Positions 1,057-59,079 of a stretch of 64,000 nucleotides of DNA are shown piece after piece. Where the stretch lies: contig JBBELK010000481.1 of assembly GCA_037783545.1 (NCBI GenBank), positions 1,364,001 through 1,428,000 on the forward strand. The letters are read 5' to 3'. The notes under the pieces were generated by a model. It was not told the DNA's origin and did no database searches. It saw only the letters and a list, made by a program, of their open reading frames with translations. This DNA is from Henricia sp. BOLD:AAB3569 (taxonomy: Eukaryota; Echinodermata; Asteroidea; Spinulosida; Echinasteridae). Every line of letters begins with the position of its first letter. Position 1 is the first letter of the stretch. Position numbers and translations under genes: made by a program.

Positions 1057-1185
1057 CTATGTTTGATTGCCGTCTGGGTGGACAACATATCCCACAAATT
1101 TTAACGTGTGATGGCGTTAAAGATTGCCTGGACAATTCGGATGAGGAAGAGTGCAATGTTATGAGTCCAAATACACCTCCCCCAG
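1057..1185 (+). CDS. Window exon 1: LDLa module (four-Cys variant)
   Basis: Acceptor ...tcaacag ends at 1056 and a donor cag/gtcagg starts at 1186. The exon is 129 nt, phase 1-1. It encodes FDC..GG-HIP...CDGVKDC.DNSDEEEC, the core and calcium-binding end of an LDL-receptor class A repeat. The first and third cysteines of the usual six are missing (H stands where C3 should be). A fragment with CDG..DC..SDE can still bind calcium in this family. The donor GTCAGG is weak, so the 3' edge is slightly uncertain. A short tail rich in Pro (SPNTPPP) follows the module. Confidence 0.86.
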
Positions 1186-4100
1186 GTCAGGAGAAGTTTG
1201 CCATAATGAGACATTATATCATTTGCATTAACCCCAAAAATGACTTCATGTGTTCACAAATAAAAACTTGCTTAAAGATAGTATACATGATTGGTAAACT
1301 GTTACAAATAGTTTTATCCCCCTGTGTGATTGAGGATATGCATGATTAAAACCAATCTGAGCAAAAACCAGCTCCGTACTTCGTCTAACTTTTGAGAAAA
1401 CAGTCAAAAATTGGTTTGCAGTAATTTTGCCCCAAAACCACTTCGCCCCGAACCACAGCCTGTGCACGAAGTGGTTTGGGGGCGAAGTAGCATTTACACT
1501 ATGAACATCTAACAATGGAAATTGGGCACACACCATTGTTACTAACAATGGGGTGACAATGAACATGTACATGTTTTTGCTCATAGTGTTAGGCGATGTA
1601 GTGTTTGGACAAAGTGATTTGGGGCGAAATGGCACTCGGGCGAAGTGGTTTGGGGGCGAAATGGCAATTGGGCGAAATGGTTTTGGGGCGAATTTAATTT
1701 TCGTCTCATGAGACGAAATATAATTGTTTTACTCATTTCTCAAAGACAATAGCACTTCAGACAAAACCATTTTAAGGCAAGTTTTCTACGGTCATCATGT
1801 TTATATTGTGTAAGTTAGGCGTAAATCTGTGAACATTTCTGATTTTCGAGATTACCAATGATGTACATGTATACTGCCTTTAATTCTATATTCCGATTTT
1901 GCTGTACCAAACACTTATTCATACAGGTGTATAGTTGTATTTGTTGTTCTAATGTTCCACTGTGTTATTTGATCCATAATAGTCTCTGAATGTGATGCCG
2001 GTAAGTTTCACTGTGGACTCGGCGAATGCATTCCGGAGAGCTGGAAATGTGACACGGTGGTTGACTGTAAAACTGGAACGGATGAAGAGTTAGACTTATG
2101 CGGTGAGAATTAAACAAACATGTAGGCTTGTCTCTACTGAGTGCAAGTACAGTAAACCTTGCATTAAAGTCGGATACGTTTATGACGGATTTTCACTTCT
2201 CGGACAAAATCGCTTGGAACGTTTAATTTCGCATGCTATTCCTAGGTGCTATTCACAACATATTTTTATTCAGTGCCCCGCTCAATTTCGAGACTTAAGT
2301 TTAAGTGTGGTCTGACCTGTCTCAAGTCGATTTAATGGTGAGCCACTCGGCTGCCATTGCAGTGTTTTTACACCCAGTGCGTTATCGAAAAAACAAATAA
2401 ATATGGTCGACCTGCTCTGCGTAAAAGGGTATTAAGTCGCGCTGGCTAGTATTCTTTTTGCGACCATAAGAAGAAATCTGTGGCATTTCTACGCTCATTA
2501 AAATACCAAAACACAAAAGAAATTCCAGGCGTAACGCAGACATTCCAGGGGGAACACAGACATTCCAGGCGGTATCTGGGCAACGCCAGGAATTTCTATT
2601 GTGTTTTGGTATTTTATTGAGCGTGGATTTCCCGCGGATTTCTTTTTGTGGTCGTAAAAATAATACTAGCCAGCGTGACTTAATACACTTTTTCGCAGAG
2701 CGGGTCACATATATGATTAATCAGAGATCCCCTAAGCATTGGAAGATGACAGATTCCGATCTTTATTAAGTTACTGACTCAGAATAAAGCCTGACCATTG
2801 CGGCTACCGCATATGAGTCTGTCCACAGTAATGGGGTACATTTGAAAAATAAGTCAATAATTCCTTTCAGATGTCTTTAGTTTATCTCAGAATTAAAGAA
2901 CTGGCCTTGTTTTGTTCTCAGGAGATAACTTTTGCCCAAAAAGGTAAGAAATTACTGCCACAACATACATTTTTGAAAAGCTTGTGTACAAATTTTCATA
3001 TTACATATGTAACGTGGACAGACCATTTTGTGACATTTTTTGCACGGGGTTTTCACAAATGTATGTTGTAGGACTATTTTTTGTACTCCTTGGTGAAAAA
3101 GTTATTTCCTCAGTTTAGCTTGATAATTTAAAGATAAAATTAAGACATTTTAAGTGAACTGGGACCTAAGATCTTGAATGTTACAGAAATGTACCCCATT
3201 ACTGTGGAAAGACCCACATACATGTAATATCTGGCACAACCGATAGTGCAGTGATACGTACATGTACAGTCTACGTGTGTACGATATGCGCGTAATGTGC
3301 ACGTACGATAAACGCGCATAGTAATCAAATGTTTTTTAAACGCCGCGCGTGGTTGCGCTGCATGATAGCAGAAACGTTAATTGTGACGTGGCAGTGTTAA
3401 GCATGCGCTAATTTAAGTGACTGATTTAATTGGACCACTAAAATAGGCGGGGTGCTCAAACCTTTTGTGAATTTTACGAAGATAAGTGCTCCACTTATCT
3501 TAGTGAGGTGCTTAATTAGATTTAAGACAGAATTGAAGGCACAGGCTCGTCAGCAATGCGCGCGCTCAAAATTCGTGCCACAAAATACGCAGCTCCATGC
3601 CTTGCTGTGGAGCTGCGTATTTCGTGGCACGAATTTTGCGCGCGCGCATTGCTGACGAGCCTGTGTCTTTTAAATACCCCGCTTAGATTTAATCTTGTGA
3701 ATACCGGCCCAGCCCCTAACCAATTTTAAACGTATAGTTTAAGACCGTTAATTCAAACCCACTTTTATTCTGCATTTAAAACATGCTTAGAGTAAGTTTT
3801 AGCGATGCGTGCAACGGTACTAGTTATTTTTTCTGAATTTTATATTATTTTTTTCACCAGGCCGTCCTAATTGCAAGGAGCCTGAGGAGATGTGCCCGGT
3901 TGGAGGAGGATGTGGCATCTTGTGTGACCTCGAACCAAATTGCGTCAACGCCACCGATGAAATCAACTGCGGTATGATTTCTGCTTGCAATTAATTTTAT
4001 TGGTGTCTGACATAGTGCACGTGGCGCTTTCCAACATTATTACCAGGGCTGTAGTCGAGTCCCCACTTCCCGAGTCCGAGTCCTTGGTGTCCGAGTCCGA

Positions 4101-9498: not shown

Positions 9499-9532
<34 letters not shown>

Positions 9533-45500: not shown

Positions 45501-48500
45501 GCAAGTCTTCACAAGTTCTCACAAGTCCCCGCAAGTCCCCGCAAGTCCCCACAAGTTCTATTAGTCCCCACACGTCCCCACAAGTCCCCGCAAGTCCTAC
45601 TAGTCCCCACAAGTCCCCGCAAGTCCCCGCAAGTCCCCGCAAGTCCCCGCAAGTCCCCGCAAGTCCCCGCAAGTCCCCGCAAGTCCCCGCAAGTCCCCGC
45701 AAGTCCCCGAAAGTCTCCGCAAGTCTCCGCAAGTCTCCGCAAGTCTCCGCAAGTCTCCGCAAGTCTCCGCAAGTCTCCGCAAGTCTCCGCAAGTCTCCGC
45801 AAGTCTCCGCAAGTCCTCGCAAGTTTTCAAAAGTCCCCACAAGTATACTCACAAATCCTCAAAAGTCCTCATAAGCCCCTGCAAGCCCTCTCAAGCCCCT
45901 GCAAGCCCTCACAAGTCCATGCAAGCACCCAACTCCCCACAAGTCCCCACAGGTCCCTAAGGCCTCACAAGTGCCTGTAAGTCCTGACAAGTTTCCACAA
46001 GTCCTCACAAGTCCTCATAAGCCTCTACACGTCCCTACAAGTCCCTGCAAGATCCACAAATCTTTACAAGTCCTCACAAATTCGTACAAGTTTTCAAAGG
46101 TCCCCACAAGTATACTCACAAATCTTCAAAAGTCCTCATAAGCCCCTAGCTGCAAGCCCTCACAAGTCCATTCAAGGCCGCCCCCAACCCCCCCCCCCCC
46201 CCCCTACAAGTCCCTACAGGTCCCTAAGGCCTCACGTGTCCCTGTAAGTCCTAACAAGTCATCATAAGCCCCTACAAGTCCATGTAAGTCCTCACAAGTT
46301 CCCGTAAGTCCTCAAGTCTCCATAAATCCTAGCAAGTCACCGTAAGTCCCCACAAATCTCTGCAAGTCCCTGCAAGTCCCCACAAATCTCTGCAAGTCCT
46401 CATAAGTCTCTGCAAGCCCTCACAAATCCATGAAAGCCCCCAAAAGTCCTTAAAAGTCTTTGAAAGTCTTTGAAAGTCTCCACAATTAAGTCCTCATGAG
46501 TCCCCGCAAGTCCTCAGCCTCAGAAGTCCTAGCCCTTGCAAGTCCTCACAATGCACAAGTCCTCATAAGTTATCATAAACCCCCACGAGTCTCCACATGT
46601 CTCACAAGTCCTTTGCAAGTTCTCATAAGTCCCTTGCAGGTTCTCTGAAGTCCCTTAAGTCCTCACAAGTTTATGCAAGTCTTCACAATTAGATTCCCCA
46701 CTGTTCTTGGGCATAATGCCTGACATTTAGTCCATTGCAAGGATATTTCTTTTGTCTATTTCAGCGAGGGTTACTACACAAGAACGACGTCGATGTCTCT
46801 GTGGCCATCTCTGAAATTTGGGGCAAGTTAAACATTTTATTTCAAATTGATTATAAAATAATGTTTTTTATTATGATTGATAGATAGTCTGGATCATTGT
46901 ACGAAATCACAGCGGAAAATAACATTTATGTATCAATAATTTTTTAGTAACTTTTTGCGATTTACTACAGCTTTCAACATATTTCCAGTGAGGGGTTCAA
47001 GTGCATATAATATTTGTAACCCTCCAACGTGCTATGGGGTGCTTTTAAAAAGTCAGCTTGAATGTTGAGTTGCCAACCCTGAAAAATTTGGGCCTCCAGC
47101 CAAGCCCCATTCATTTGTATATATAAACCCTTGCCGCCCTGGATAATTTGAGCTATCAATCATCATACTTCTGGCCTTAGTGACAATGTATAAACAACAC
47201 TAGCCTAGGCTTGTCCAAGTCTGAGCTTGTCTTATGATGTTTGCTGCCAAAATCCAGGCCCGTAACTCACTTCTACAGCTGTGACTAAATCCCAGCGCGG
47301 TAGCATTATTAACAACCTCACACGGTCAACTGTAGCCAGGGAATAGTCTGGTTACCGGAATATCTTGGTCTGAAGACCTGACTTCACGCGCGAGGCTAAA
47401 TCACAGCCTTGTTCTTTCTGTACACGATGTGTTATGTGTTTCTTTATATCTACGTTGGAAATCCCACGCAATTACGTATGCCAAACCCGAGTAGTTATAA
47501 ATATTAATATCGTGCATAACATCCAATCATATAGCTCACTGACCGTGTGGCCAATCGAACATCGAACGTACGTATGCCACAGTGATATAAGTCCGTTTTC
47601 AATACTGGAGAGACTTTTTCACCAGGATCATAACTCTGTGCAAAGCCAATTATCTTCTCTCAAAACAAAAGAAATATCTTAAGACAGATCTAAGGAGATA
47701 ACTTGAGCAACAAATAGTGCGACAACATACCTTTCTGAAAATCTTGTGTACAAATTTCCTATTTAACGTATGTAACATAGGACACATACTTTGTGACATT
47801 TTTTGGTGTCCTTGTTACATACGGTATATTGGAAATTTGCACACAGGGCTTTCAGGAAGGTATGTTGTGACATTATTTGTTGCAGTTCTTTAGCTGAAGT
47901 TATCTACTTAGATCTATCTTAAGATATTTCTTTTGTTTTGAGAGAAGATGAATGACATTGTGTAGAGATTTAATCCTGGAGGAAGAGGTCTCTCTAGTAT
48001 TGAAAACAAACACATATGTAACATGCTTGTCGTTGCTTTTGCAATGTACTTGCGTGTTGCATGTTGAGTGCGTACAAAATGCATGACACTATTACAATCG
48101 AGGAAATATATCGGTGGTTTGAATTATATAATCGACAAATTGCAAATTGATGACTTTCTCGAAGACCAGAAGATAGCCCGCACATACTTTCTGTAAAGGT
48201 ATGATGTGTTTGTGAACTTACCAACTGTGTATACGTACGGAAAGTCTGCTATTTTTCAAACAGCACCGTATTGTTCTGTCAAAACAACCAATGAGGTTAC
48301 GTATCTCGGTGCTCTCATTTTGAAAAATTAGCATAAAGGGTCTCCGCCCATAAAACACAGCATGGACAAAAAGAAGGCTGTGATTCAGCCTCGCGCGTGT
48401 AGTATATAGTGCGAGCACGTCACTGCATGCAACCGCGCCAGGTGATCGGGCCTAAATCTGTCCATGGCACGGTAAGAAAAACAACCTTGGACAAGGCTTA

Positions 48501-51500
48501 AACAACACGTGTTATGCAACGAATTACTGTATAGTCAGTCCCATTTACATAAAGTTTTAGCATGCCTGCTCAATATACATTTAAATTAAATGTTTGTGTT
48601 TGACTTTTCAGGGTCATCTTTTGCGCAATATCCACTCCATCAACCAAAAAACCAGACAACTAAACAATGAATCTATTCGGTGAGTAGAATAAACCTTTTG
48701 CGCATTCGCAGATGCATCATGGGATTGGATGACTCCAAGTTTTTACCCAAGTATTGCCAGTGACCCAAACCACTCGGCCACGGTACCCCCACCATAACGC
48801 TACTTGTCCATTTAAGTTTTAAGAACTCGATCCTTGCTGTTACCAGAAGAATCCCAATGTATTTTTCAGGGCTGTAGTCGAGTCCACACTTTCAGAGTCC
48901 GAGTCCAGCATACACCTGTCCTTTAGGCCATGGAAAATATTTCTTTGGCAGGTGAAAATCATTTCAAGCGTTTGAAATTTCACATTTTAAAAATTTCATT
49001 TCACATATTTTTCGGCTCAATTTGTAACAAGCACTTGAAATAATATCCCGGCACTCGTAATGATGTACTTTTCGTAAAATGTATCTTAAAGGCAGTATAC
49101 ATGATTGGTATCTCGAAAATCAGAAATGTTCACAGATTTACGCCTAACTTGCACAGTATAAACATGATGACCGTAGAAAACTTTTCCTGAAATTGTTTTG
49201 TCTGAAGTGCTATAGTCTTTGAGAAATTAGTAAAACAATTAGTTTTCGTCTCATGAGACGAAAATTCAATTCGCCCCAAAACCATTTCGCCCAAGTGCCA
49301 TTTCGCCCCTAAACCACTTCGCCCGAGTTCCATTTCGCCCCAAATCACTTCCTCCAAACACACCATCGCCAAAATGCCACTTCGCCCCAAAACCACTTCG
49401 TGCAAATGCTGTGGTTCAGGGCGAAATGGTTCAGGGCGAAGTGGTTTTGGGGCGAAATGACTGCAAACCCTTTTGACTGTTTTCTTAAAAGTTAGACGAA
49501 GTACGGAGCTGGTTTTTGTTCAGGTTGGTTTTAGTCATGCATATCTTCAATCACACAGGGGGATAAAACTATTTGTAACAGTTTACCAATCATGTATACT
49601 ATCTTTAATGCATGTGGGTTTTTGTTTTCACTAGACTCGGAAAGACTCGGCCCAAATCTCGGAGTCCTTACCACCTGAGTCCGGGTCCTGACTGGTTGAG
49701 TCCTAGTCCGAGTCCTTAAAAATTGGGACTCGTGTCTGTACTTTGAAGTATTCTCATTTGTTTTTTGGTAAAACTATACCACAGTTAATTAAAGGGACAT
49801 ACCGGCTTTGTTGGGATATTTGGGCGCGAAATAGACCCATACATGATTCTGAAAGTCTTTCCGAAATAGACTGAAGAGAACCCGAAAAGAAACAACAAAA
49901 TTTGGCCGTTTTTTAGCATTTTTCAAAAAATCAAGGTCACGTGATTTATCCGAACCAGATTTCTGGTTCGGATAAATCACGTGCTCTTGGAGTTAGTTTT
50001 ATTTCCAGCCATATGGTTTATGATAGTTTATTCTGGGAGTTTATTACTGCAGTACTGCATCACATTCAGCTCTGATTTTTTTATTTGACAAAGGAGACCA
50101 TTTATTCAGGTTATGAAACAAAGTCAAACATAACTCTAAAAAATCGAACATAACATTTTGACACAAAGTCCGAGGAACCGAAGCGAGTTCCACCGGACAA
50201 TGTGACATTTAGCCACAGTGCTTGTGGTTCGTGCAGCCAGATCACCATCGGATGTTTTAGTCTGTACACCTACTCCATCCTGAGATATCAGGGAATTTCC
50301 ACTCTGCAAAGCGACGTAACAATACCCTGAGGAAATACACGCAAATCTGTGGAGCGAGCCGGCTGTTGTCTTGAGCCAACTCACGCCCGAGTCATTTTGA
50401 TGTAATTTAATCAATTTGGTCATGTTATGCCGAAAAGAAACAATTTCTATACTTTTCAGAAATTGTATTGGGTTCCGTTCCTTATGACTGTCCCATTTCT
50501 ACCAAACTTTCAAACGACGAACCTTATTTACTCCGCAGTTTTTCACATTAATAACAGGGATGCATGCTGACGAATGTAATGGAACGGATTCCCCAGTATG
50601 CTTTAAATAGCAGCCAATCGCCGACGCGGACAACGGCCAGCATTACCGAGTACATGTATCACATGCATGCACGGTGTTTACAATCTGCGCGCGTTACATT
50701 TGAATGCCTGCAATCGTGCTGCAATGCACTGTAAGCGTCCTGATTGGTCCAGCAGAGGCGACAAGATTTCTGTCGCTAGTCCCACCGCCAAATGGGGCCT
50801 TTTTCAACAGGGCCACTGTACGCAGGAGTTAGAGAGTGCGTTAAAGGGGCACTGTTGCAAGAGGATGTACCTACTCTGACTCCACGCGGAACTACAGCTG
50901 TACGTTCGTGAAGACAAATCTTCAAAACGAACAAACCCATTCGGTGGTCCGAGCTGTCCAGTGAAATCTTCATCAGAAAATGAGTGATATCCAAAGCAAA
51001 AGCTGCCAAGTGAAGAGCGAATCGTTTCGGACAAAGTCGTGAGTCTCGCCCGATAGTGAACGGCTGGTAAAGCGTATAACTGGACTATATTGACAATTTA
51101 TGTTAATTTTAAGCTTTTGTAGATAATTACAGGACATTTTGATGATCTTTTTTCACAAGGACCATCAAAAAATTATTGTCAAGCATGCTACATCACTAAA
51201 TAAACCTTATCGACGTTCTCAAAGCATCATGGGATTGGATGACAAGTGAAGCTGGCAATTTTCACACAAACCTATGGGGCTCTGGGGACATGTCAATGTT
51301 CATCGATTTTATTTTCGTTTCTGTGAAGCGATTGACATGTGATCTTCCCACACGTTCTTCATCAAGGAAAAATGCAATTTTTGACAAAATCATTTTTATT
51401 CTAACTCAGTGTAGTAAAATGAAATAAAATGAGAAAATTAAAAATAATGCACAGCACCAGTTTGTACCTGATTGGCTCTAACGTGGTAGCTCAACCCTGG

Positions 51501-53953
51501 CTCAACCAATCGTGACAGCCCTTTTATAATGGTACAAACTGGCGCCGTTCAAAAAGTCGAGTTTTCTTGGTTTATTTCATCTAAGCTCAATTAAAATAAA
51601 AATTATATTTGTCAAAAATTGCATCTTTCCTTGATCAAAAGCGTGTGAAAAGATCACATGTTAATCGCTTCACAGAAATGAGAATGAAATCGATGAACGT
51701 TGTCATGTCCCCAGAGCCCCATAGATTTGTGTGGAAATTCCCTGCTTCATCTGTCATCCAATCCCATGATGCCTTGAGAACGTCGATAAGGTTTATTATG
51801 TAAACAGTAGGCCGGTATGTACCTTTAATTGGGGAGGGGGAAGATTGACGAAAATAAGTCCAATTTACCATCACTTCTTTTTTTTAGTGATAATATTGTG
51901 CGGCTTGAGGTTTTCTATGAGCAACTCAATTATGAAACTACAAGAGAAGTGCCAGCATATCAGGTAAGTTCAAATTTGCACGGAGTCTTTGAGATTTCTG
52001 ATAATTTAAGGCAATTATTAATTCTTTCTGGTATTGAAACCAAGGATTCCTCACAAGTGCCCGAGGCACTGTAGCTTGTAAGCCTGAAGAAACCTATGAA
52101 GAGAAGACGATGAAGAATATGCTCAGTTTTAGAGGTGGGAGGAAACCCCTACACAATTTGTATAGGAAAAAACCCACGGAATCAAGCAGGGACTGAGAAC
52201 CCAATCCACATAATGACCCGGACGGGATTCGAACCAGGGCCAAAGACCACTAAGCTACCCTGATTCATCAGTTTTGGTCAAGAGGGTGAGATTTAAAATC
52301 CATACGAAAAAAACCATAAATTCCAGAATTTGCCACTTTCGACTTGGCATCCTCCATTGTCAAGGAAATTGTCTATGTCCGAGATCCCTTTGCACCTCTT
52401 GATGTTGCGCGAAACGATCAAAATGGTTTTCAATAACATTTAGGGTGATCCAGCATTCCTTCAGAATCTGAAATCTGAAATTTTTGTTTAAATCCATTGG
52501 AAAATGACAGTTATTTAAAGGAACACACCGGCTTTGTTGGGCTATTTTGGGCTCGAAATAGACCCATACATTATTCTGAAACGCCTTCGAGAGTAAATTC
52601 GATATATCCTGAAAAGACGCCGTCAGATTTGGCCGTTTTTGAGCACTTTTGAAAAATTCAAGGTCACGTGACTTTTCGGAACCAAATTCTGGTTCCGAAA
52701 AGTCACGTGGTCTTGTGAGTTAGTTGTATTTCCAGCCGTATAAAAGTTTGTTACTGCAGAACTGCACTAAATTCAACTCTGATTTTCCCCCAATATTTAT
52801 AAGTAATTGACAAAAGAGAGACTATTTATACAGGTATGATAACCTGAGCAGGAGAAGAGCGAATCGTTTGTGACAAAGTCTTGAGGCTCGCGCGTAGTTG
52901 CAACGGCTGGTAAAGCGTATTACCCGTCTTTTGACCGTTTTTGTTAATTTTGCACTTCTTTAGTAAATTACGGGATATGTTGATGATCAAAAAAGTATTG
53001 TCAATGCTGCTACATCACTAAATCATGTAAACAGTAGGCCGGTGTGTACCTTTAAGATCAAAAGTGGGATTTTTTTTTTTTGACACGTAGTACAATACAG
53101 GGTGTCCCAGAAAAAAACGAAACCGAGATTTATCGATGTTTAATCATACTTTAATCTCAATCTTGAATAATAAATGACACATATTTGGAAAGCTTAGTTC
53201 CTCATCTTTCATTTGATACCACTCATATGATACATACTTCACGCATGAATGAATAAAGACAATATGAAGCAGGGCTACCAAAACGTCGTTTGCACAACGA
53301 TACCTGAATTTCAGGGGTTTCAACACGCACGTTTTTAATGCACCGTACGTTACCATCTCCGAATCCATTCATGCGAAAAATCGGTCAGGTGTGAAAAAAC
53401 GAATGATTTTAAAAAAACATGGAAATTCAATCTATATTTAAATGCAGGATATCTCTGTCATCCCTGGCTCATTTTTCCTGACTGAGGTATCATACGAAAG
53501 GGCAGGAAATTAACTTTTTAGAAATGTGATTATTTCTTTGAAATTCAGGTATCGTTGTGCAAACGACTTTTTGGTAGCCCTGCTTCATATTGTCTTTATT
53601 CATTCATGCGTAAATTATGTATCATATGATTTGTATCAAATGAAAGATGAGGAACTAAGCTTTCCAAATATGTGTCATTTATTATTCAAGATTGAGATTA
53701 AAGTATGATTAAACATCGATAAATCTCGGTCTCGTTTTTTCTTGGACACCCTGTATATGAAAAGATTATCCTCATGCAACATCATTCTACAAATGACGAC
53801 TCACTTTTTTTTTCTTTTTAGGCAAGCGCCCTCTTTGGCGACATCGGTGGCATTGCCGGTCTTTACATCGGTTGCTCTATCATTACTTTTTGCGAGTTCA
53901 TCATGTTCGGCTTCAAGCTGGTCAAACGCATGACCATAAATAAAATCCATTAA
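1057..53953 (+). CDS. Multi-domain DEG/ENaC sodium channel (LDLa-kringle-SRCR-LDLa-ASC), 3' 20 exons
   Basis: This is the span of a spliced gene; the coding exons are listed separately. Joined, they give 2939 nt in one frame (the end of a split codon, 978 residues, then TAA). Module order: LDLa x3, four-Cys module, kringle, SRCR, furin-site linker, LDLa x3, then the channel (ASC family) core from window exon 11. The channel part shows the family's landmarks: LGHQREDFILQC, LYGNCYTFN, the Cys-rich thumb (CRKTC, CGC, CP..C), SLWPS, and a final helix with GG..GLYIGCS. Members of this family form trimeric amiloride-sensitive cation channels in the plasma membrane, gated by proteases, acid, peptides or force; the stimulus here is unknown. 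The first transmembrane helix and start codon are absent, so the gene is 5'-incomplete in this window. An unsplit AATAAA lies at 53939-53944 inside the last codons; no clear poly(A) signal was seen just after the stop. Confidence 0.93.
1275..1879. repeat. Palindromic MITE family B, copy 1 (with nested family L)
   Basis: Inverted ends AAGGCAGTATACATGATTGG-like with TTA on both sides. The middle holds many cgaagtggtttggggcgaa words in both orientations. A second, small palindrome (1498-1592, CTATGAACATCTAACAATGG and its complement) is inserted in the centre. Confidence 0.85.
1983..2102 (+). CDS. Window exon 2: LDLa module, complete
   Basis: Acceptor ccataatag ends at 1982; donor cg/gtgaga at 2103. 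The exon is 120 nt, phase 1-1. The peptide starts SECDAGKFHCGLGECIPE and carries all six LDLa cysteines (EC, HC, EC, KC, DC, LC), followed by CDTVVDC and a TDEE calcium-site-like stretch. Confidence 0.92.
2395..2720. repeat. Palindromic repeat, about 325 bp
   Basis: The left arm (tctgcgtaaaagggtattaa, ctggctagtattctttttg) returns as its complement near 2620-2700. The centre is a short imperfect repeat of cattccaggcgg. 2103-2394 shows nothing else. Confidence 0.65.
2812..3215. repeat. Palindromic repeat family N, copy 1
   Basis: Ends CCACAGTAATGGGGTACATTT and its complement. The inside (ggagataacttt, acaacataca, cttgtgtacaaat) resembles 47650-47950, a second family member. Confidence 0.65.
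3535..3672. repeat. Palindromic MITE family A, copy 2
   Basis: Full hairpin of about 138 bp with both GCTCGTCAGCAATGCGCGC arms and central CTCCATGC...CTGTGGAG. Confidence 0.9.
3861..3971 (+). CDS. Window exon 3: LDLa module, divergent
   Basis: Acceptor ttttcaccag ends at 3860; donor cg/gtatga at 3972. The exon is 111 nt, phase 1-1. Six cysteines are spaced as in LDLa (NC, MC, GC, LC, NC, NC) with a final ATDEINC. One usual Asp of the calcium site is Asn, so calcium binding may be weakened. Confidence 0.9.
4047..4690. repeat. GAGTCC-rich dispersed repeat (family D) with 21-bp array
   Basis: Starts agggctgtagtcgagtcc. At 4062-4213 it has about seven copies of a 21-bp unit (gagtccgagtccttggtgtcc), open in several frames (e.g. 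DSDTK repeats on the minus strand). It ends with GGACTCGAGTCC palindromes at 4655-4682. A related copy at 48868-49740 lacks the array. Intronic; the open frames are compositional. Confidence 0.85.
4925..4996 (+). tRNA. tRNA-like sequence (Thr-AGT-like), probably SINE head or pseudogene
   Basis: A box tggtcgagtggttaagacg and B box gggttcgtgtccca. The acceptor arm pairs 6 of 7 (agctcgg with ccgagca), the T arm is perfect (gtggg/cccac) and the anticodon loop ccagtat would read AGT. The anticodon stem relies on wobble pairs. It lies inside an intron and runs into repeat-like sequence, so a functional gene is doubtful. Confidence 0.5.
5191..6948. mobile_element. 1758-bp Harbinger-like fold-back element with nested GC-rich element
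   Basis: TAA on both sides (5188-5190, 6949-6951). Inverted ends AGGCCCGTCTACACGA / TCGTGTAGACAGGCCT. Arms of about 300 bp repeat as complements (e.g. caagtttgactgacgattt with its reverse near 6780). The middle (about 5532-6468) is much richer in GC, with many GGCCG/CCGGC words and CAATTA/TAATTGTGACT ends, and looks like a second element. A small hairpin (tgtcacaaaatgcattgcta) is at 6495-6640. No transposase was seen. TWA duplications suggest PIF/Harbinger, by inference. Confidence 0.75.
6952..8640. mobile_element. Fold-back element (ACATCTTCAGTCAA ends) with nested family F
   Basis: GGGACATCTTCAGTCAAATG at 6952 is matched by its complement ending near 8640. An inner pair (cataatgaggaatgtccccc at about 7226; its complement at about 7838) confirms the fold. 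A family F MITE (7351-7594) sits in the left half. No transposase reading frame was found. Confidence 0.7.
7351..7594. repeat. Palindromic MITE family F, copy 1
   Basis: CCAGGGGCCAATTTCAT and its complement flank two arms with GCTTTATAAAATGG. Other copies are at 11286-11493, 23286-23522 and 24676-24890. Confidence 0.88.
8704..9218. repeat. Inverted-end repeat (AGGGTAATTCCCA ends)
   Basis: AGGTAATTCCCA(C)AATTAGGG-type ends at both sides; inner parts carry ggggtcc..ttggtgtcc like the palindrome at 27761-28007. No coding signal. Confidence 0.6.
9465..9745. repeat. Hairpin repeat with poly(C) and poly(G) arms
   Basis: A 31-C run (9501-9531) and a 20-G run (9705-9724) sit in opposite arms of an imperfect palindrome (ends tgataatgcacc / ggtgcataata). 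Between them are cccca..gtgggg pairs. Run lengths in such tracts are easily misassembled. Confidence 0.75.
10055..10205. repeat. Small GC-rich hairpin
   Basis: AAAACCGGATAGGGGCCTGGACGC and its complement form arms of about 60 bp around a short loop; outer words agtgggttt/aaacccact also pair. A related arm occurs at 29310. Confidence 0.75.
10318..11135. repeat. Dispersed repeat (family G) interrupted by a 525-bp MITE
   Basis: Flanks (gaagaaaacaggaaatttgcaa; tggtatcaaaatctcaaaaccc) match 43690-44155. Inside, 10453-10976 is a separate palindromic element with ends GGGGCGGTATTCAATTCA and its complement. 9750-10050 shows no gene. Confidence 0.7.
11286..11493. repeat. Palindromic MITE family F, copy 2
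   Basis: Left end shortened; right end agctttatgaaattggcccc intact. It ends 58 bp before window exon 4. Confidence 0.85.
11552..11674 (+). CDS. Window exon 4: small four-Cys module of unknown type
   Basis: Long T-rich tract and acceptor ending at 11551; strong donor gtaagt at 11675. The exon is 123 nt, phase 1-1, which fits the neighbours exactly. The peptide has cysteines in ALCGG, YHC, ADC and EPCKT. I do not recognise a named domain. A worn LDLa without its acidic end or a small lectin-like knot are possible. Confidence 0.85.
11870..12488. mobile_element. Tc1/mariner-like fold-back MITE
   Basis: TA duplications flank CACTCGACCAAAAAAGTTC and its complement. Arms of about 220 bp (ggcaagcttcactgaacagg; ccaccactcctttgtt-like words) repeat as complements. 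619 bp, no transposase. TA targets are typical of Tc1/mariner; the family is inferred. Confidence 0.75.
12500..15385 (+). other. Intron stretch without recognised gene
   Basis: Mostly AT-rich and apparently low-copy within this window. I see no exon with phase 1-1 borders and no strong palindrome. The word GTAACGTTACTAAC occurs three times (13938, 14131, 14259). A truncated coding signal cannot be excluded, but none is supported. Confidence 0.5.
15388..16443. mobile_element. hAT-like non-autonomous element (TTCGGTTCGG ends)
   Basis: Left part agtgctgtaacgaaat...gttcggttcgg and right part ...cggtccggttcgg...cccgttcggttcg are inverted relative to each other. The start resembles hAT ends by style only; no 8-bp duplication was confirmed. 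Confidence 0.45.
16610..16954 (+). CDS. Window exon 5: kringle domain
   Basis: Acceptor ttttaaaag ends at 16609; strong donor gtgagt at 16955. The exon is 345 nt, phase 1-1. Kringle landmarks in order: ECY, YRGMLSQDF, DCVPW, NFCRNPGG, TPWCF, then a final pair of cysteines (VLC, ETC). That is six cysteines over about 100 residues, the usual kringle size. Kringles are disulfide modules that bind proteins, lysines or lipids. An N-glycosylation-rich stretch (NGT, NET) lies near the end. A competing acceptor (ttacag) 7 nt downstream would break the frame. Confidence 0.95.
16967..18245. repeat. Cluster of inverted repeats in intron 5
   Basis: GTATAGACCGTATTGAA (about 16969) and ttcgacacggtctatac (about 18225) are opposed ends. 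Inside are two further palindromes: 17634-17809 (TATAGACAGCCGAAGTG ends) and about 17826-18058 (AAGTCCGCCATAGCTGGGGGC and complement). A third pair, gtgcacccaagtaaataggg (17093) and its complement (17562), is also present. The same GACCGTATCGAATAGC ends recur at 39125-39277. Confidence 0.6.
18473..18775 (+). repeat. Minisatellite, GAGTCCCAAGTCAAGTCAAA unit
   Basis: About ten copies of a variable 22- to 33-bp unit (gagtcccaagtc, one to three aagtc, aaactgcc). Length variation comes from the inner AAGTC pentamer. Confidence 0.9.
18881..19020. repeat. Palindromic MITE family A, copy 3
   Basis: TTAAAGGCACAGGCTCGTC... to its complement ending GTGCCTTTAA; 140 bp hairpin. Confidence 0.9.
19472..19613. 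repeat. Palindromic MITE family A, copy 4
   Basis: Same arms as copy 3. It ends 59 bp upstream of the SRCR exon, so the acceptor's upstream intron is MITE sequence. Confidence 0.9.
19673..20014 (+). CDS. Window exon 6: SRCR domain
   Basis: Acceptor cttgttttacag ends at 19672; donor cag/gtaggt at 20015. The exon is 342 nt, phase 1-1. It is a scavenger receptor cysteine-rich domain: LWDRG, GRVEV, GVGTISDRDW, DANVVCRQLGF, LLKDVQCQGNE, LIDC, HSHDVCVAC. The usual first Cys (V-C-D-D) is Ser here, while an extra Cys occurs in STRC, so the disulfide pattern may be shifted. SRCR domains bind proteins and microbial or sulfated ligands. A whole domain in one phase 1-1 exon is typical of this family. 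Confidence 0.95.
20221..20794. mobile_element. MITE family E, copy 1, inserted in R600 with TTA duplication
   Basis: AAGGGCCTGTGACATGC and GGGCCCT ends, with TTA on both sides. Flanks join exactly to R600 (gtaattta / atcaatttgg), which proves the insertion and the 3-bp target. It is an inverted copy of 24973-25553 at high identity. Both carry a 135-codon open frame that begins with TTG, not ATG, and mostly differs by amino-acid changes, so it is probably not coding. Confidence 0.85.
20967..21504. repeat. Fold-back with AGGCCTTTTCACACTAC ends and CCCGGGT words
   Basis: Ends AGGCCTTTTCACACTAC / GTGTCGTGGGAAAAGGCCT. Many TACCCGGG/CCCGGGTAA words occur. An inner piece (21268-21452, ccagcacgat...atcgtgctg) recurs at 39278-39450. 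Confidence 0.65.
21668..21793 (+). CDS. Window exon 7: linker with furin-like cleavage site
   Basis: Acceptor ttccctgcag ends at 21667; donor t/gtaagc at 21794. The exon is 126 nt, phase 1-1. It encodes IRRGKRSAESLEAGEK near its start, then ACPFCK and a polar tail. RGKR/S matches the proprotein convertase rule R-x-K/R-R. The exon is low-complexity and charged, like a flexible linker, and has one CxxC pair. No named domain was recognised. Confidence 0.85.
21924..22697. repeat. Inverted-end repeat (GACTATGTAAG ends)
   Basis: GACTATGTAAGTCTCGCG at 21926 pairs with CGCGAGGTCAACTTACATAGTC near 22697. An inner pair (ccgggcacaa / ttgtgcccgg) agrees. Confidence 0.6.
22807..22883 (+). tRNA. tRNA-like sequence (Thr-TGT-like), probable SINE head
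   Basis: A box tagctcacttaattggtagagc and B box gggttcgaatcccag. Anticodon arm ttggc-catgtat-gccaa is perfect and would read TGT. T arm ctggg/cccag is perfect; the acceptor has one A-G mismatch. A second, damaged copy (27600-27660) shares its flanks (tggcaagcacgag; caattttctcgtgtttct), so this is a repeat family rather than a single tRNA gene. Confidence 0.55.
23286..23522. repeat. Palindromic MITE family F, copy 3
   Basis: Complete: CCAGGGGCCAATTTCATAAA to its complement. 237 bp, with inner GCTTTATAAAAATGGGT arms. Confidence 0.92.
23669..23800 (+). CDS. Window exon 8: LDLa module, complete
   Basis: Acceptor tataaaag ends at 23668 (poor pyrimidine tract); donor gtgagt at 23801. The exon is 132 nt, phase 1-1. 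It is a textbook LDLa: SCPGGWFQCKSGECIRYWKT, then C, and PDCADGSDEW..DC, with six cysteines and a full calcium motif. Confidence 0.93.
23905..24372 (+). repeat. Dispersed repeat family C, copy 1
   Basis: Same order of blocks as 33258-33627. Its last bases (catgtaatctgtttcacag) form the acceptor of window exon 9. Confidence 0.7.
24375..24539 (+). CDS. Window exon 9: LDLa module with insertion
   Basis: Acceptor ctgtttcacag ends at 24374; donor ag/gtaata at 24540. The exon is 165 nt, phase 1-1. It encodes CSPQEFQC, LLKCIHKRFVCDD, NDC, and SDERRC: six LDLa cysteines, with an insertion of about 15 residues between C5 and the final SDE..C. The acceptor lies at the end of a repeat copy (see findings). 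Confidence 0.9.
24676..24890. repeat. Palindromic MITE family F, copy 4
   Basis: Degraded ends (aggccaatttcataaagctg; agctttatgagatta), same inner arms. Confidence 0.8.
24973..25553. mobile_element. MITE family E, copy 2
   Basis: TTTAAAGGGCC ends; high-identity inverted counterpart of 20221-20794. The shared open frame (from TTG at 25065) lacks an ATG start. Confidence 0.85.
25960..26080 (+). repeat. 3' fragment of Leu/Ser-type SINE
   Basis: cttgcgagtgacagtgcaatg, gaggaatccttg, gaataccag, then an (aat)/(aag) tail, as in the full copies at 31410 and 35292. The head is missing. Confidence 0.75.
26404..26997. mobile_element. 594-bp near-perfect palindrome with TTA duplication
   Basis: TTA (26401-26403, 26998-27000) flanks AGCCCGCCGCACACGTGAGG and its complement. 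Almost the whole element is two arms of about 290 bp (cgtttgctgagcaaacgg, aatgtagctggccaat, ggtcacca in both orientations). No coding capacity. Confidence 0.88.
27142..27279 (+). CDS. Window exon 10: LDLa-like module (four-Cys variant)
   Basis: Acceptor attatccag ends at 27141; donor g/gtgagt at 27280. The exon is 138 nt, phase 1-1. PPGYIRC, KFIHEYDMC, NTVVDC and DDKKNC follow the LDLa pattern, but C1 and C3 are absent, as in window exon 1, and the SDE calcium motif is replaced by KDDKK. This is the last symmetric cassette exon before the channel core. Confidence 0.87.
27761..28007. repeat. Palindromic MITE (GGGTCTTTCTATAAATTAGG ends)
   Basis: Ends are perfect complements over at least 25 bp; inner ggtgtcccccgttac/gtaacgggggacacc also pair. 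It ends 31 bp before window exon 11. Confidence 0.88.
28039..28345 (+). CDS. Window exon 11: DEG/ENaC extracellular core, first part
   Basis: Acceptor ctttttgtag ends at 28038; donor ag/gtatta at 28346. The exon is 307 nt, entering in phase 1 and leaving in phase 2. It encodes about 102 residues, ending in LGHQREDFILQCTYEQRPC. This is the conserved finger/palm segment of the ASC family, where a GH..D.F..C motif precedes the next conserved Cys. The earlier FPAVT-C strand that follows the first membrane helix in this family is not seen here or upstream in the window. Confidence 0.93.
28368..28832. repeat. Palindromic MITE family B, copy 2
   Basis: Starts 22 bp after the exon 11 donor. Ends GGTAGTATACATGATTGG / CCAATCATGC..., TTA flanks; joined head to tail with copy 3 through one shared TTA. 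Confidence 0.85.
28836..29306. repeat. Palindromic MITE family B, copy 3
   Basis: AAGGTAGAATACATGATTGG to ccaatcatgtgttctacgtt; central cgccc/gggcg words in both orientations. Confidence 0.85.
29310..30296 (+). other. Intron stretch without recognised gene
   Basis: It holds short repeats of gtgttagtgtta (29445-29545) and a 138-codon minus-strand frame (29533-29949) with no recognisable family. I see no exon. Confidence 0.5.
30297..30797. repeat. Palindromic MITE family B, copy 4
   Basis: Complete ends with TTA flanks; the fullest example of the family, including CATGAGACGAAAATTCAATT. Confidence 0.9.
30866..31085. repeat. 12-bp array GTTAACAGATCT
   Basis: About 18 copies; a CTG-type half (5') and a CTC-type half (3'). 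GTTAAC and AGATCT are each palindromes, so the array can fold on itself. 31086-31405 continues with scattered gttaaca and acaccgtgttaac words. Confidence 0.92.
31410..31772 (+). repeat. tRNA(Leu/Ser-type)-derived SINE, copy 1
   Basis: Head: ggtaccgtggccgagtggtt (A box) and B box ggtacgaatccggctg with ends GGTACC-like. Body: gcactcaaccacacttgctc, gatgtaaagccgttggtcc. The tail is (aat)n. About 85-90% like copy 2 by eye. Confidence 0.85.
32181..32278 (+). CDS. Window exon 12: DEG/ENaC core (YGNCYTFN)
   Basis: Acceptor atttttgaag ends at 32180; donor g/gtaagt at 32279. The exon is 98 nt, phase 2 to 1. It encodes NFTPLQDDLYGNCYTFND, the palm signature of DEG/ENaC channels. The joined frame with exon 11 is uninterrupted. 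Confidence 0.94.
32541..32953. repeat. Inverted-end repeat (CCTGTCCGCATTGGACTT ends)
   Basis: cctgtccgcattggacttttt at 32543 and aagtccaatacggacacgg near 32950 are opposed; the same word recurs inside at 32610 and 32730. It ends about 85 bp before window exon 13. Confidence 0.65.
33038..33201 (+). CDS. Window exon 13: DEG/ENaC core (GLQMTLFLE)
   Basis: Acceptor caacgattag ends at 33037; donor gtaaga at 33202. The exon is 164 nt, phase 1 to 0. It encodes GLQMTLFLEQSEYISIYG and a G-V-R-V...H stretch, then TPGTVTSIGLRY, matching the conserved palm beta-strands after the YG.CYTFN motif. Confidence 0.94.
33258..33627 (+). repeat. Dispersed repeat family C, copy 2
   Basis: Blocks accacatgatt, tgtaaaatggtacctttgtggg and gaaatttctacaaggcagtttatcaacatt match 23905-24372 in the same order; a looser copy is at 44155-44285. 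Confidence 0.75.
33735..34652. repeat. Family L element, long form
   Basis: Ends CTATGAACAACTAACAATGGAA and its complement, as in the small palindromes at 1498-1592 and 55858-55953. A second inner pair (agctagaatccccc / gggggattctagct) suggests another element of about 820 bp inside. A microsatellite-poor, AT-rich interior with no clear gene. Confidence 0.65.
35118..35297. repeat. 15-bp array TAATACGGGGTGCCG
   Basis: Twelve near-identical copies with no spacers. It abuts the SINE head (ggggtaccttggccg), whose first bases resemble the unit. The minus-strand frame (RITAP repeated) is compositional. Confidence 0.93.
35292..35605 (+). repeat. tRNA(Leu/Ser-type)-derived SINE, copy 2
   Basis: ggtaccttggccgagtggtta (A box), gggttcgaatccggctg (B box), end pairing GGTACC/GGTACC, body as in copy 1, (aat)n tail at 35585. 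Confidence 0.88.
36286..37243. mobile_element. GC-rich 958-bp element with TTA duplication (Harbinger-like MITE)
   Basis: TTA at 36283-36285 and 37244-37246. Ends TGCTACGTTTACACCATGTC and its complement run for more than 45 bp (CCCCGGCAGTCCCGGCGCC). Base composition is far richer in GC than the AT-rich intron. Several open frames on both strands are likely a by-product of GC richness; no transposase motif was seen. Confidence 0.82.
37291..41353. mobile_element. 4.06-kb giant fold-back element
   Basis: TTA flanks; ends AAGGGGCTATGTCACC / gtgacaaagcccct. Inner arms of about 600 bp match as complements (37940-38560 with 40735-41240; e.g. gtctcctgaacaccatacta, aatttgcataatatgcaaat, ccatgcaaac). 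The centre (38800-40700) holds other repeats: a GACCGTATCGAATAGC hairpin (39125-39277), the agcacgatatgtggc family, poly(G) and a 23-bp array. It ends 37 bp before window exon 14. Confidence 0.75.
39778..40325 (+). repeat. Poly(G) tract and 23-bp array TACTTTGTGGCAAGTGTGCCAGG
   Basis: A G-run of about 23 bases at 39778-39800, then gggttggg repeats. From 39860 a loose, and from 40140 a tight, array of tttgtggcaagtgtgccagg in at least seven copies. Open frames on both strands are compositional. Confidence 0.85.
41391..41510 (+). CDS. Window exon 14: DEG/ENaC core, palm to thumb
   Basis: Acceptor ttttattcag ends at 41390; donor gtaagt at 41511. The exon is 120 nt, phase 0-0. It encodes PPYGNCNKK and a final Y-D-L-A just before the thumb cysteines, as in ASC proteins (YG.C ... 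Y). Confidence 0.93.
41576..41647 (+). tRNA. tRNA-like sequence (Asn-GTT-like), SINE head copy 1
   Basis: ggcttcatagcttaattggtagggc (A box) and ggtttgaatccc (B box); the anticodon loop atgttaa would read GTT. A second copy at 43553-43624 has a perfect anticodon stem (tctgc/gcaga). Both share a tail (aagttgcttttca, tttcccaaactcatagacat), so this is a SINE family. Confidence 0.6.
41868..42003. repeat. Small palindrome (AACGTATAGTTCATGCAA)
   Basis: Arms ttttaaaaacgtatagttc and complement around a loop with ccacgtgg. 42004-42560 shows nothing else recognisable. Confidence 0.7.
42572..43164 (+). repeat. R600 repeat, near-full copy with CCAAT/TATA-like motifs
   Basis: About 590 bp, found inverted at 50275-50870; its 3' 240 bp are at 1-238. 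Near 42822 it has GGCGATTGGCTGCTATTTAAAGC: a reverse CCAAT box and a TATA-like TATTTAAA about 12 bp apart, followed 25-35 bp later by a possible start region. That is an RNA polymerase II promoter-like order. No LTR ends (TG..CA) were confirmed. Confidence 0.7.
43553..43624 (+). tRNA. tRNA-like sequence (Asn-GTT-like), SINE head copy 2
   Basis: Same structure and tail as 41576-41647; the acceptor arm pairs 6 of 7 (ggcttca/tgcagcc). The T arm is imperfect, so a working tRNA is unlikely. Confidence 0.6.
43690..44155 (+). repeat. Dispersed repeat family G, copy
   Basis: Matches the outer parts of 10318-11135 but lacks the GGGGCGGTATTCAATTC element, so it represents the unfilled site. An inner palindrome (ttgcgtaag/cttacgcaa) lies at about 43840-43965. 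Confidence 0.7.
44434..44539 (+). CDS. Window exon 15: DEG/ENaC thumb, cysteine-rich
   Basis: Acceptor tctctttgcag ends at 44433; donor ag/gtaggc at 44540. The exon is 106 nt, phase 0 to 1. It encodes LCRKTC, QQCGCSD and RCKLMNQT, the conserved disulfide ladder of the thumb domain. Confidence 0.94.
44540..45217 (+). other. Intron 15, no recognised gene
   Basis: Contains gatcgtttaac/ttacgat-type imperfect inverted words (44630-44830). Nothing else supported. Confidence 0.5.
45218..45296 (+). CDS. Window exon 16: DEG/ENaC thumb (CFDSCPEQC)
   Basis: Acceptor gtgagcag ends at 45217; donor aa/gtatgt at 45297. The exon is 79 nt, phase 1 to 2. MCRQLVYF and TCFDSCPEQC match the second half of the thumb cysteine pattern. 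A 10-bp minisatellite starts about 40 bp after the donor. Confidence 0.92.
45330..46700 (+). repeat. 10-bp minisatellite AAGTCCCCGC, about 1.4 kb
   Basis: A tight core at 45535-45830 (aagtccccgc, then aagtctccgc), flanked by looser copies (acaagtcccc, gcaagtcctc) to about 46700. A C-run is at 46187-46204. The unit has no stop in three frames of either strand, so 80-200-codon frames appear; none is a gene. It begins about 35 bp after the exon 16 donor and fills most of the intron. Confidence 0.93.
46765..46822 (+). CDS. Window exon 17: DEG/ENaC SLWPS segment, GC donor
   Basis: Acceptor tctatttcag ends at 46764. The exon is 58 nt, phase 2 to 0, encoding EGYYTRTTSMSLWPSLKFG; Y..S.S..WPS is a family hallmark. 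The donor is g/GCAAGT at 46823. The next GT (46827) would shift the following exon into an early stop, so a GC-AG intron is the only reading that keeps the frame. Confidence 0.9.
47650..47950. repeat. Palindromic repeat family N, copy 2
   Basis: ctctcaaaacaaaagaaatat and its complement, with inner cttaagacagatcta, acaacatacctt and tatgtaaca arms. 46980-47650 and 47950-48611 show no gene. Confidence 0.8.
48612..48679 (+). CDS. Window exon 18: DEG/ENaC, wrist/palm connector
   Basis: Acceptor acttttcag ends at 48611; donor cg/gtgagt at 48680. The exon is 68 nt, phase 0 to 2. It encodes GHLLRNIHSINQKTRQLNN, a basic stretch between WPS and the last palm strand, where sequence varies between family members. 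Confidence 0.88.
48868..49740. repeat. GAGTCC-rich repeat family D, copy 2, split by MITE B
   Basis: 48868-49085 and 49608-49740 together match 4047-4690 without the 21-bp array. The MITE B copy (49089-49604) sits between, with TTA on both sides. Confidence 0.8.
49089..49604. mobile_element. Palindromic MITE family B, copy 5 (nested)
   Basis: Complete ends (GGCAGTATACATGATTGG / CCAATCATGTATACTATC), TTA at both sides, inserted in a family D repeat. Confidence 0.9.
50275..50870 (-). repeat. R600 repeat, inverted near-full copy
   Basis: Opposite-strand match to 42572-43164, including the CCAAT and TATTTAAA-like motifs (around 50600-50620). Confidence 0.8.
51200..51795. mobile_element. Palindromic element (CTTATCGACGTTCTCAA ends)
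   Basis: Arms of about 200 bp (gcatcatgggattggatgac, ggggacatgtcaatgttcatcg, cttgatgaa-type words) return as complements. Inserted in family K copy 1, which continues on both sides. A fragment of the end occurs at 48708-48742. Confidence 0.82.
51888..51963 (+). CDS. Window exon 19: DEG/ENaC last palm strand
   Basis: Acceptor ttttttttag ends at 51887; donor gtaagt at 51964. The exon is 76 nt, phase 2 to 0. It encodes NIVRLEVFYEQLNYETTREV, matching the conserved L.V.Y..L.Y strand before the second membrane helix. Confidence 0.93.
52518..53051. mobile_element. MITE family K, copy 2 (uninterrupted)
   Basis: AAGGAACACACCGGCTTTG / GGCCGGTGTGTACCT ends, TTA flanks, inner hairpin tcacgtgacttttcggaacc. 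Confidence 0.85.
53098..53753. mobile_element. Tc1/mariner-like fold-back MITE
   Basis: TA flanks; CAGGGTGTCCCAGAAAAAAACGA and its complement. Arms of about 210 bp, including two matching 60-codon shadow frames. It ends 68 bp before the last exon. Confidence 0.85.
53822..53953 (+). CDS. Window exon 20: second membrane helix, pore and C-terminus
   Basis: Acceptor ttcttttta/g ends at 53821. The last coding exon is 132 nt, including TAA. It encodes LFGDIGGIAGLYIGCS, then IITFCEFIMFGFKLVKR and a short basic tail of about 12 residues. LFGDIGG...G.Y.G-x-S is the DEG/ENaC second transmembrane helix; GCS sits where family members have the G-x-S selectivity filter. The very short C-terminus lacks any PY-type motif. 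Confidence 0.95.
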   Translation, partial: ASALFGDIGGIAGLYIGCSIITFCEFIMFGFKLVKRMTINKIH

Positions 53954-56541: not shown

Positions 56542-57104
56542 CGTTATTTAATCAAAACCAATCAATAATCAGAAAAGAATTGAGTGATCACAACAATACC
56601 TTATATCACAATCTTGCCAAATTAAATAGATGTGAGCCGCTCCACCAAAAAGAGGCGCTTGTCGCACAGGCCAGAACTGAGATAATGGCTCATTTATGCA
56701 TGTACATTTATGTCAAGTATATAGGGCATTTGTTTTATCGATACCAGGATTTCTGCATGAGACCACCTATTAAGTATCCATCTATCACCTAAAGAAATTT
56801 AAGTGAATAAATACTACCAGAAAACAGTTCTTTCAGTGTTTTTCTAAAGCATATATACTTTTATGAAACTCGGCTAATTTAGCTGAAACAATGGGAAAAT
56901 CACTGATAATCCATGCTTATTTTCATCGTCTTCGGCAGGGGTTGGCACCATCGAGATATATACACTGGATGAAGCAACGACGTCTAAAATTGAAGCCACC
57001 GTCCGCCATTGTACCCAATAAAATACAATGCCTTGCCTAGACATGGTCATGATTATTTCCTATTGGGCTATAGCCATATTGCATAATATGCAAATAGTGG
57101 CGCG

Positions 57105-57965
57105 ATGTTCAAGATCCATCGGGGTGTGGCAACTCATAGATCATTGACCGTTTTCACCTCGGCACTGCAGCACGAGCCTGTTCATTTATCCGGTCCTGTA
57201 CGTGTTCGCCAATCTTTGTTGTTGAATCACAGCAAAACTTTCGGTATGTTAGAACAGGACTTACACGTCGATTTTAGCCAGGATTCAATCAATCCAGCAG
57301 CAAGCCAGAACACAAATTCACAGGGCCTTACATTAGACAGCATATCGGCCATAATAAAGGACGCAGTTGGCGGGGTCAAAGAATACATTAACGACGCACT
57401 GTCCAGTACAAAAACACAGGTGTTGGAAAACGCAAAAGTGCAGTGGAAATTCAAAGGTAGAGAAAAGGTAGAGAAAGCGCTGGCAAAGATTCAGAAAGGG
57501 GACATTCGATCCGCTACGACAGAATTAAACTCCGTAATTTCTGAATTGAACACGAGAAGTAAGCACATTAAGTTAGCAGACAAAAGCGAGCACGACCGGA
57601 AAGTTGTAGACGAATATCAGGCAGAAGAGCTGGCAGACAACAGCGATGACGAAAAGAGAATTAAGTCGGCCATTAAATCGGCAGCAGCAAAACAAAAGGC
57701 GAAGCCAACCAAAGCACAGGCTAAACGAGCTGCACCTTACCCAAGACGCTCCGAGACGTACCCTATCGTGAAGGCAAAATGGCTGGCCACAGTGGTAATT
57801 TTCGCCGCTATTTTCAGTTCAATCGATTCCCAATTGCAAGCACAAGTGGGCCACACTCAACATATTTCTGTTTTGCCTGCGGAAAGACCGGACAGTGGCG
57901 TCGAAACTGCCCCGGGTTTGCTGCATTTTCCAAGTCAAGAGAAAAGCAAGGAGGGCACCAGTAGG
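57105..57965 (+). pseudogene. DIRS-like Gag remnant with CCHC-like knuckle
   Basis: The first frame (from 57105) gives an alpha-helical, Lys-rich protein (VEKALAKIQKGDIRSATTEL). A frameshift near 57770 moves the continuation to another frame, which holds CFACGKTGQWRRNCP, a zinc knuckle with Gln in place of the usual His. Role in the family: RNA binding and particle formation. Confidence 0.7.
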
Positions 57966-59054: not shown

Positions 59055-59079
59055 TGATGAAAACATTACCGTATATAAC

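Follow-up and report, generated by a model that had tools for sequence, protein, structure and literature searches.

A predicted Henricia gene joining LDLa, kringle and SRCR module exons to a DEG/ENaC channel core

The window analysed here is a stretch of 64,000 nucleotides of contig JBBELK010000481.1 from the sea star Henricia sp. (assembly GCA_037783545.1). Scoring of splice sites and open frames resulted in a predicted gene model of 20 plus-strand exons between positions 1057 and 53953, which join in one frame encoding 976 residues followed by a stop codon. An earlier note made from the sequence had described twenty exons in a single frame, and this description held at every junction (19 of 19 frame-compatible). 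The predicted protein consists of four LDLa-type modules (one of them degenerate), a kringle, an SRCR domain, a linker, three further LDLa-type modules (one degenerate) and the channel core, in this order. The exons are listed below.

M1, 1057..1185, + strand: LDLa with four of six cysteines (without C1 and C3), phase 1-1; Ldl_recept_a 1.2e-07
M2, 1983..2102, + strand: LDLa, six cysteines, phase 1-1, acceptor 2.0; Ldl_recept_a 1.3e-11
M3, 3861..3971, + strand: LDLa-like, six cysteines, under the Pfam cut-off, phase 1-1; 11.7 bits, E 0.33
M4, 11558..11674, + strand: degenerate LDLa-like, four cysteines, phase 1-1; no Pfam LDLa match
M5, 16610..16954, + strand: kringle, six cysteines, single exon, phase 1-1; 2.5e-09 (exon alone)
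M6, 19673..20014, + strand: SRCR, six cysteines, single exon, phase 1-1; 1.2e-22 (exon alone)
M7, 21668..21793, + strand: linker, phase 1-1, carrying the furin-type motif RGKR|S and, by eye, KIKR; no Pfam match
M8, 23669..23800, + strand: LDLa, phase 1-1, acceptor 2.3; Ldl_recept_a 3.2e-10
M9, 24375..24539, + strand: LDLa with insertions, phase 1-1; Ldl_recept_a 5.6e-08
M10, 27142..27279, + strand: degenerate LDLa-like, four cysteines, TVVDC as in M2, phase 1-1; no Pfam match
A, 28039..28345, + strand: start of the DEG/ENaC core, finger region; acceptor of phase 1
B, 32181..32278, + strand: DEG/ENaC core, YGNCYTFN; ENaC beta alignment
C, 33038..33201, + strand: DEG/ENaC core; ENaC beta alignment
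E, 41391..41510, + strand: DEG/ENaC core, GPPYGNC (the label D is unused)
F, 44434..44539, + strand: DEG/ENaC core, cysteine-rich thumb; picked with a phase condition
G, 45218..45296, + strand: DEG/ENaC core, cysteine-rich thumb, CxxxCxxxC
H, 46765..46822, + strand: DEG/ENaC core, EGYYTRTTSMSLWPS, GC donor; picked with phase and motif conditions
I, 48612..48679, + strand: DEG/ENaC core
J, 51888..51963, + strand: DEG/ENaC core, LEVFYEQLNYE, last palm strand
K, 53822..53953, + strand: pore helix TM2, G-C-S filter, short tail, stop codon

All 19 introns end with AG; the donor is GT in 18 of them and GC in the one that follows exon H (46822). Each of the ten module exons is of phase 1-1, and the acceptor of exon A is of phase 1 as well. 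The sites that connect modules and channel are strong (phase-1 donor of M10, 9.7; acceptor of exon A, 12.0), and weak acceptor scores were obtained for M2 (2.0), M8 (2.3) and F (3.7). Phase was a condition in the selection of exons F and H, accompanied by a motif condition in the case of exon H, so that the frame fit of these two exons is not independent evidence. On its left side the model is open, as exon M1 begins at a phase-1 acceptor and therefore needs an upstream exon. The GC content is 41.4% in the window, 41.2% in the introns and 48.3% in the coding sequence (GC3 52.3%), and the window is free of N. Its spliceosomal introns and animal-type domains fit animal DNA. Polyadenylation-like hexamers are located at 54092 and at 53939, the latter still inside the last part of the coding sequence. 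The GC donor at 46823 reads GGG|GCAAGT, and the intron preceding exon H carries a long CAAGTCCCCG tandem array. Read-through of exon G into this array (45336-46670) was dropped, since exon H at 46765 restores the phase and matches ENaC beta.

Phase 1-1 exons are a mark of exon shuffling. For region 1-28040, we counted phase 1-1 exons that do not overlap one another, measure 60-400 nt, carry four or more cysteines and reach a combined splice score of 10 or higher. The plus strand displayed 11 such exons, nine of which belong to the model, and the minus strand 0; 20 Markov-randomised copies contained 10 altogether (0-2 per copy). The count for phase 0-0 gave 0 exons and that for phase 2-2 a single one. 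Score and cysteine thresholds were fixed after the exons had been seen, and the control is therefore a check of excess and no blind test. M7 is absent from the count because it possesses only two cysteines. By eye, no module is recognisable in the two additional plus-strand exons (9583-9672 and 26465-26587), the second of which overlaps an inverted repeat at 26402-26506. Chance open frames were dropped as an explanation, since they are contradicted by the domain E-values and by the minus-strand and randomised-sequence controls.

Pfam analysis of the whole protein assigned residues 648-962 to the ASC domain (PF00858, 3.6e-60), covering profile positions 137-455 of 455. PDB matches to the core were ENaC beta (1.8e-36), ENaC gamma (3e-35), ENaC alpha (1.7e-33), ASIC2 (1.4e-32) and ASIC1 (2.7e-32), and residues 646 to 960, including TM2, are colinear with ENaC beta. 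Both NCBIfam models stayed below their cut-offs (ENaC TIGR00859, 234.5 bits, cut-off 428; degenerin TIGR00867, 210.1 bits, cut-off 598.45). TM2 (GDIGGIAGLYIGCSIIT) contains G-C-S at the selectivity filter, which fits G/S-x-S; G/S-X-S is described as the selectivity filter of DEG/ENaC channels (PMC8791634). The DEG/ENaC core and pore helix claimed by the earlier note are thus borne out by the ASC domain, the ENaC beta match and TM2. The tail following TM2 comprises about 15 residues and, having no PPxY, lacks the C-terminal PY motif of ENaC subunits. Thirteen N-glycosylation sequons are present, seven of them in the modules.

Thirteen cysteines of the core are located between residues 667 and 865. 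ASIC1 carries 14 extracellular cysteines, of which we take 13 to be present here; the absent one presumably belongs to the FPAVTxC strand after TM1. Its partner (residue 690, YGNC) is present, and an FPAVTxC strand is therefore predicted upstream. In exon A, 73 residues precede residue 648, the first one aligned with ASC (profile position 137), and the exon thus probably starts just past the first palm strand.

The spliced protein contains a sole clearly hydrophobic span at residues 944-962 (Kyte-Doolittle 1.91; runner-up window 0.90). Because no membrane span parts them, modules and core lie on the same side, and the side of the core is extracellular in DEG/ENaC channels (PMC9822975). This supports the earlier placement of the modules outside the cell. 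Their position in the loop that follows the first helix, which had also been proposed, is likely as judged from the sequence, although the window yielded no TM1.

Neither TM1 nor the HG motif nor the FPAVTxC strand was found within the window. The 759 bp between M10 (27279) and exon A (28039) contain no TM1-like exon and no FPAVTxC-like motif, and the top hydrophobic stretch in this region reached 1.43 over 19 residues. Hydrophobic open stretches do occur in introns (best 2.24, frame 13508-13666), none of them with a recognisable palm strand after it. A candidate TM1/palm motif at 2629, the only FPAVTxC-like match of the window in six frames, was dropped because it falls within a 132-nt inverted repeat (2575-2706), in one of the arms, and looks repeat-like. 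We infer that TM1 and the first palm strand are encoded farther left, outside the window; the cassette would then probably sit between TM1/beta-1 and the finger.

The module part was examined exon by exon and in the whole protein, in which Ldl_recept_a (PF00057) matched four stretches with an E-value of 2.6e-24. Exons M1 (32.3 bits), M2 (44.9), M8 (40.5) and M9 (33.3) exceed the Pfam cut-off of 24.1; M3 (11.7) is below it, with six cysteines arranged in LDLa order. Six cysteines combined with a score above the cut-off were found in three of the seven LDLa-type exons (M2, M8 and M9). M1 passes the score with four cysteines, M3 has six and fails the score, and M4 and M10 fail both. The six LDLa-type modules reported earlier were thus roughly right in number: there are seven LDLa-type exons, four of which pass, one of which is below the cut-off and two of which have no match. 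Alignment revealed that M1, M4 and M10 alike are devoid of Cys1 and Cys3. These two cysteines pair with each other in LDLa modules, and so the three exons seem to have lost both partners of one disulphide together. The Cys1 missing from M1 might be encoded on an earlier exon. TVVDC is common to M2 and M10. Inspection by eye identified all four side-chain calcium ligands in M1, M2 and M9 and three of four in M3 and M8.

Exon M5 alone matched the kringle profile (PF00051) at positions 5-67 of 79 with 37.8 bits (cut-off 34.3, E 2.5e-9); in the Pfam scan of the whole protein, kringle was not listed at E up to 10. PDB matches of M5 include plasminogen (1.7e-12) and HGF (9e-11), both summed over several kringles, and ROR1 (1.3e-9). 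The kringle has six cysteines and is without the DxD lysine site (by eye). Since only three of seven LDLa-type exons possess the full set of calcium ligands and the kringle has no DxD, textbook-type binding is not required of every module. SRCR (PF00530) was detected in the whole protein (1.3e-20), and exon M6 alone matched profile positions 4-100 of 100 with 80.6 bits (cut-off 26.1, 1.2e-22). Kringle and SRCR, both named in the earlier note, were therefore recovered. The domain search of the joined protein that it had called for returned ASC, SRCR and LDLa, the kringle appearing only when the exon was searched alone. PDB matches of the cassette include LRP2, CD163, complement factor I and ROR1.

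Linker exon M7 harbors the only R-x-[KR]-R of the protein, RGKR|S, which is located outside the core; plain R-x-x-R is also present at residues 290 and 524. The cleavage linker proposed earlier agrees with this predicted furin-type site. According to PMC8791634, vertebrate ENaC is activated when paired basic tracts of its GRIP domain are cleaved, which requires two cuts and release of the GRIP tract. In contrast, the protein described here has one good motif, at a different place. Convertase processing of the linker would be about an even bet. A second basic tract of M7, the weaker motif KIKR, ends 23 residues past RGKR (by eye), and the paired RGKR/KIKR tracts recall the paired cleavage tracts of ENaC, though placed elsewhere.

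We consider it very probable that the locus is one gene with extracellular modules. Its product would be a DEG/ENaC subunit in which LDLa, kringle and SRCR modules add about 570 residues to the first extracellular segment, from TM1 to the finger. The cassette may have been gained when phase 1-1 exons were shuffled into an intron of phase 1. A furin-type convertase would cut the RGKR|S linker, and the palm sheet would keep the two resulting chains together, a TM1 chain bearing four LDLa modules, the kringle and SRCR, and a TM2 chain bearing three LDLa modules and the core. The modules could dock an extracellular partner, be it matrix, ligand or protease, and strain on the cassette or its cleavage would be passed through finger and thumb to the pore. 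A matrix-tether model exists for DEG/ENaC channels, as outlined in PMC10148893. The combined statement (one gene, shuffled cassette, convertase cut, partner docking passed to the pore) appears reasonably probable to us; assignment of a specific ligand or gating role of any kind would be tentative.

One possibility compatible with this explanation is that the cassette is present in some isoforms only, skipping resulting in a normal channel and inclusion in a tethered one. Each of the ten module exons, like the complete block, is frame-neutral; because skipping of a phase 1-1 exon leaves the frame intact, splicing of TM1 to exon A would yield a normal channel. The weak acceptors of M2 and M8 (2.0 and 2.3) point in the same direction. 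Isoforms of this kind are conceivable, if somewhat doubtful.

Likewise compatible is the idea that the cassette works like the stem of type II membrane serine proteases and brings a channel-activating protease, or an inhibitor of it, to the channel, which would make it a docking site for processing and not for signal. According to PMC8199346, serine proteases activate ENaC, the stem of TMPRSS2 comprises LDLA and a group A scavenger-receptor domain, and matriptase has four LDLA. The furin-type motif in the linker is consistent with such a role. However, the protein is without a protease domain (no match to a trypsin-like domain in 976 aa at E up to 10 in Pfam), and its module order fits no protease stem that we know of. 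We regard this role of the cassette as unlikely.

The single gene with extracellular modules has to be weighed against two adjacent genes, namely one for an LDLa-kringle-SRCR protein, secreted or in the membrane (1057-27279), and behind it one for an ordinary DEG/ENaC channel (from 28039), the first exons of which had gone unrecognised. The module types are known from secreted and receptor proteins, no TM1 exon was found in the window, and the junction of the halves is a predicted one. However, the TM1 exon of such a channel would have to fit into 759 bp or lie among the module exons. The gap between M10 and exon A showed no TM1-like exon, which weakens the two-gene reading; its best stretch (1.43) came without an FPAVTxC-like motif. 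Moreover, exon A starts mid-domain behind its strong acceptor (12.0), and the phase-1 donor of M10 is strong (9.7). Two genes are accordingly improbable.

A decayed gene or a misleading assembly join, to which the degenerate LDLa-like exons M4 and M10 and the one GC-AG intron might point, is very improbable, as 20 exons join without frameshift or stop, pore motif and core cysteines are intact, the window has no N and repeats are common to both halves. A chimeric assembly of two organisms is disfavoured, since the same repeat families occur in introns of the module and the channel halves. Repeat pairs across the halves are 1268-1494/28361-28590 (88%), 23908-24062/33270-33423 (89%) and 1-238/42927-43164 (98%), and these shared repeats favour one genome over a two-organism contig.

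The predicted protein resembles DEG/ENaC channels (ENaC alpha/beta/gamma, ASIC, FaNaC, degenerins) in the ASC domain, the colinear core, the cysteines and the G-x-S of TM2. In contrast to them, it has 574 module residues before the core and a very short C-terminal tail without PY. MEC-4-type C. elegans degenerins are similar in having extra cysteine-rich extracellular segments; to our knowledge, none of the C. elegans degenerin inserts is LDLa, kringle or SRCR. The deg-1 model scored slightly lower than the ENaC model here (210.1 vs 234.5 bits). C. elegans degenerins are thought to be matrix-tethered, as stated in PMC10148893.

TMPRSS2 and matriptase are ENaC activators (PMC8199346) and share with the cassette extracellular regulatory parts of LDLa/SRCR type. 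Type II membrane serine proteases and neurotrypsin have a protease domain, in place of which there is a channel here. LDLa together with SRCR is found in the extracellular regulatory parts of enteropeptidase and corin, and kringle together with SRCR in neurotrypsin. By sequence, complement factor I, LRP2, CD163 and ROR1/ROR2 are among the closest solved LDLa, SRCR or kringle proteins; they are non-channel proteins with different domain orders. Polycystin-1, a channel-complex protein, has one LDLa among many extracellular modules and belongs to another channel fold and family.

A survey of SRCR proteins lists LDL-A, kringle and PKD among the partners of SRCR, and the word 'channel' does not appear in its main text (PMC10855680). 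Among the literature matches listed, no DEG/ENaC protein with LDLa, kringle or SRCR was recognised by title or start of the abstract; part of this search was weak because the spelling 'deg enac' probably misses the form with a slash. The terms LDL and kringle had 0 occurrences in the two DEG/ENaC phylogeny papers in which they were sought. Predicted proteins of this architecture may already be present in public annotation.

Protons, peptides, force or proteolysis gate DEG/ENaC channels, and the way in which force or proteases affect the ectodomain is disputed. A natural subunit that bears defined binding modules, each folding on its own, and a convertase motif beside the finger would provide a direct test of whether pulling on or cutting the ectodomain opens the pore. 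Furthermore, it would show a pore family participating in phase-1 exon shuffling. Its module types are familiar above all from LDL receptors, clotting factors, scavenger receptors and membrane proteases, and the architecture suggests that channel opening could depend on module binding or on a protease. A receptor-channel in the full sense, whose exchangeable, shuffled and convertase-cut cassette, placed behind TM1 and resembling those of protease stems and pattern receptors, would turn binding of an extracellular protein, protease or microbe directly into Na+ current and in which exon skipping would switch between a tethered and an ordinary form, is a speculative extension that we think unlikely to hold as a whole.

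Several other features were observed in the window. Copies of a repeat of some 500-600 nt with internal GGGGCGAA(A/G)TGG units are dispersed over several introns and the region downstream of the gene, at the following positions.

1268-1883: dispersed repeat copy
28361-28836: dispersed repeat copy
28828-29310: dispersed repeat copy
30290-30802: dispersed repeat copy
49086-49608: dispersed repeat copy
55137-55607: dispersed repeat copy

Four open frames are located downstream of the gene.

57087-58094, + strand: open frame
58946-59419, + strand: open frame
60392-61033, + strand: open frame
62631-62996, + strand: open frame

Some of these downstream frames resemble, by eye, what we take to be pieces of tyrosine-recombinase (DIRS/Ngaro-type) retroelements. 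None of five open frames (the four downstream and one in a repeat) had a Pfam match at 0.01. When viral contigs were scanned with the channel core, two stretches fitted a pattern and none was confirmed. A tRNA-Thr (AGT) was predicted at 4925-4997 in the intron between M3 and M4 and could be a tRNA-derived repeat. Finally, an inverted repeat of 578 nt (20218-20795/24976-25553), the arms of which are 96% complementary, flanks the linker exon, M8 and M9.
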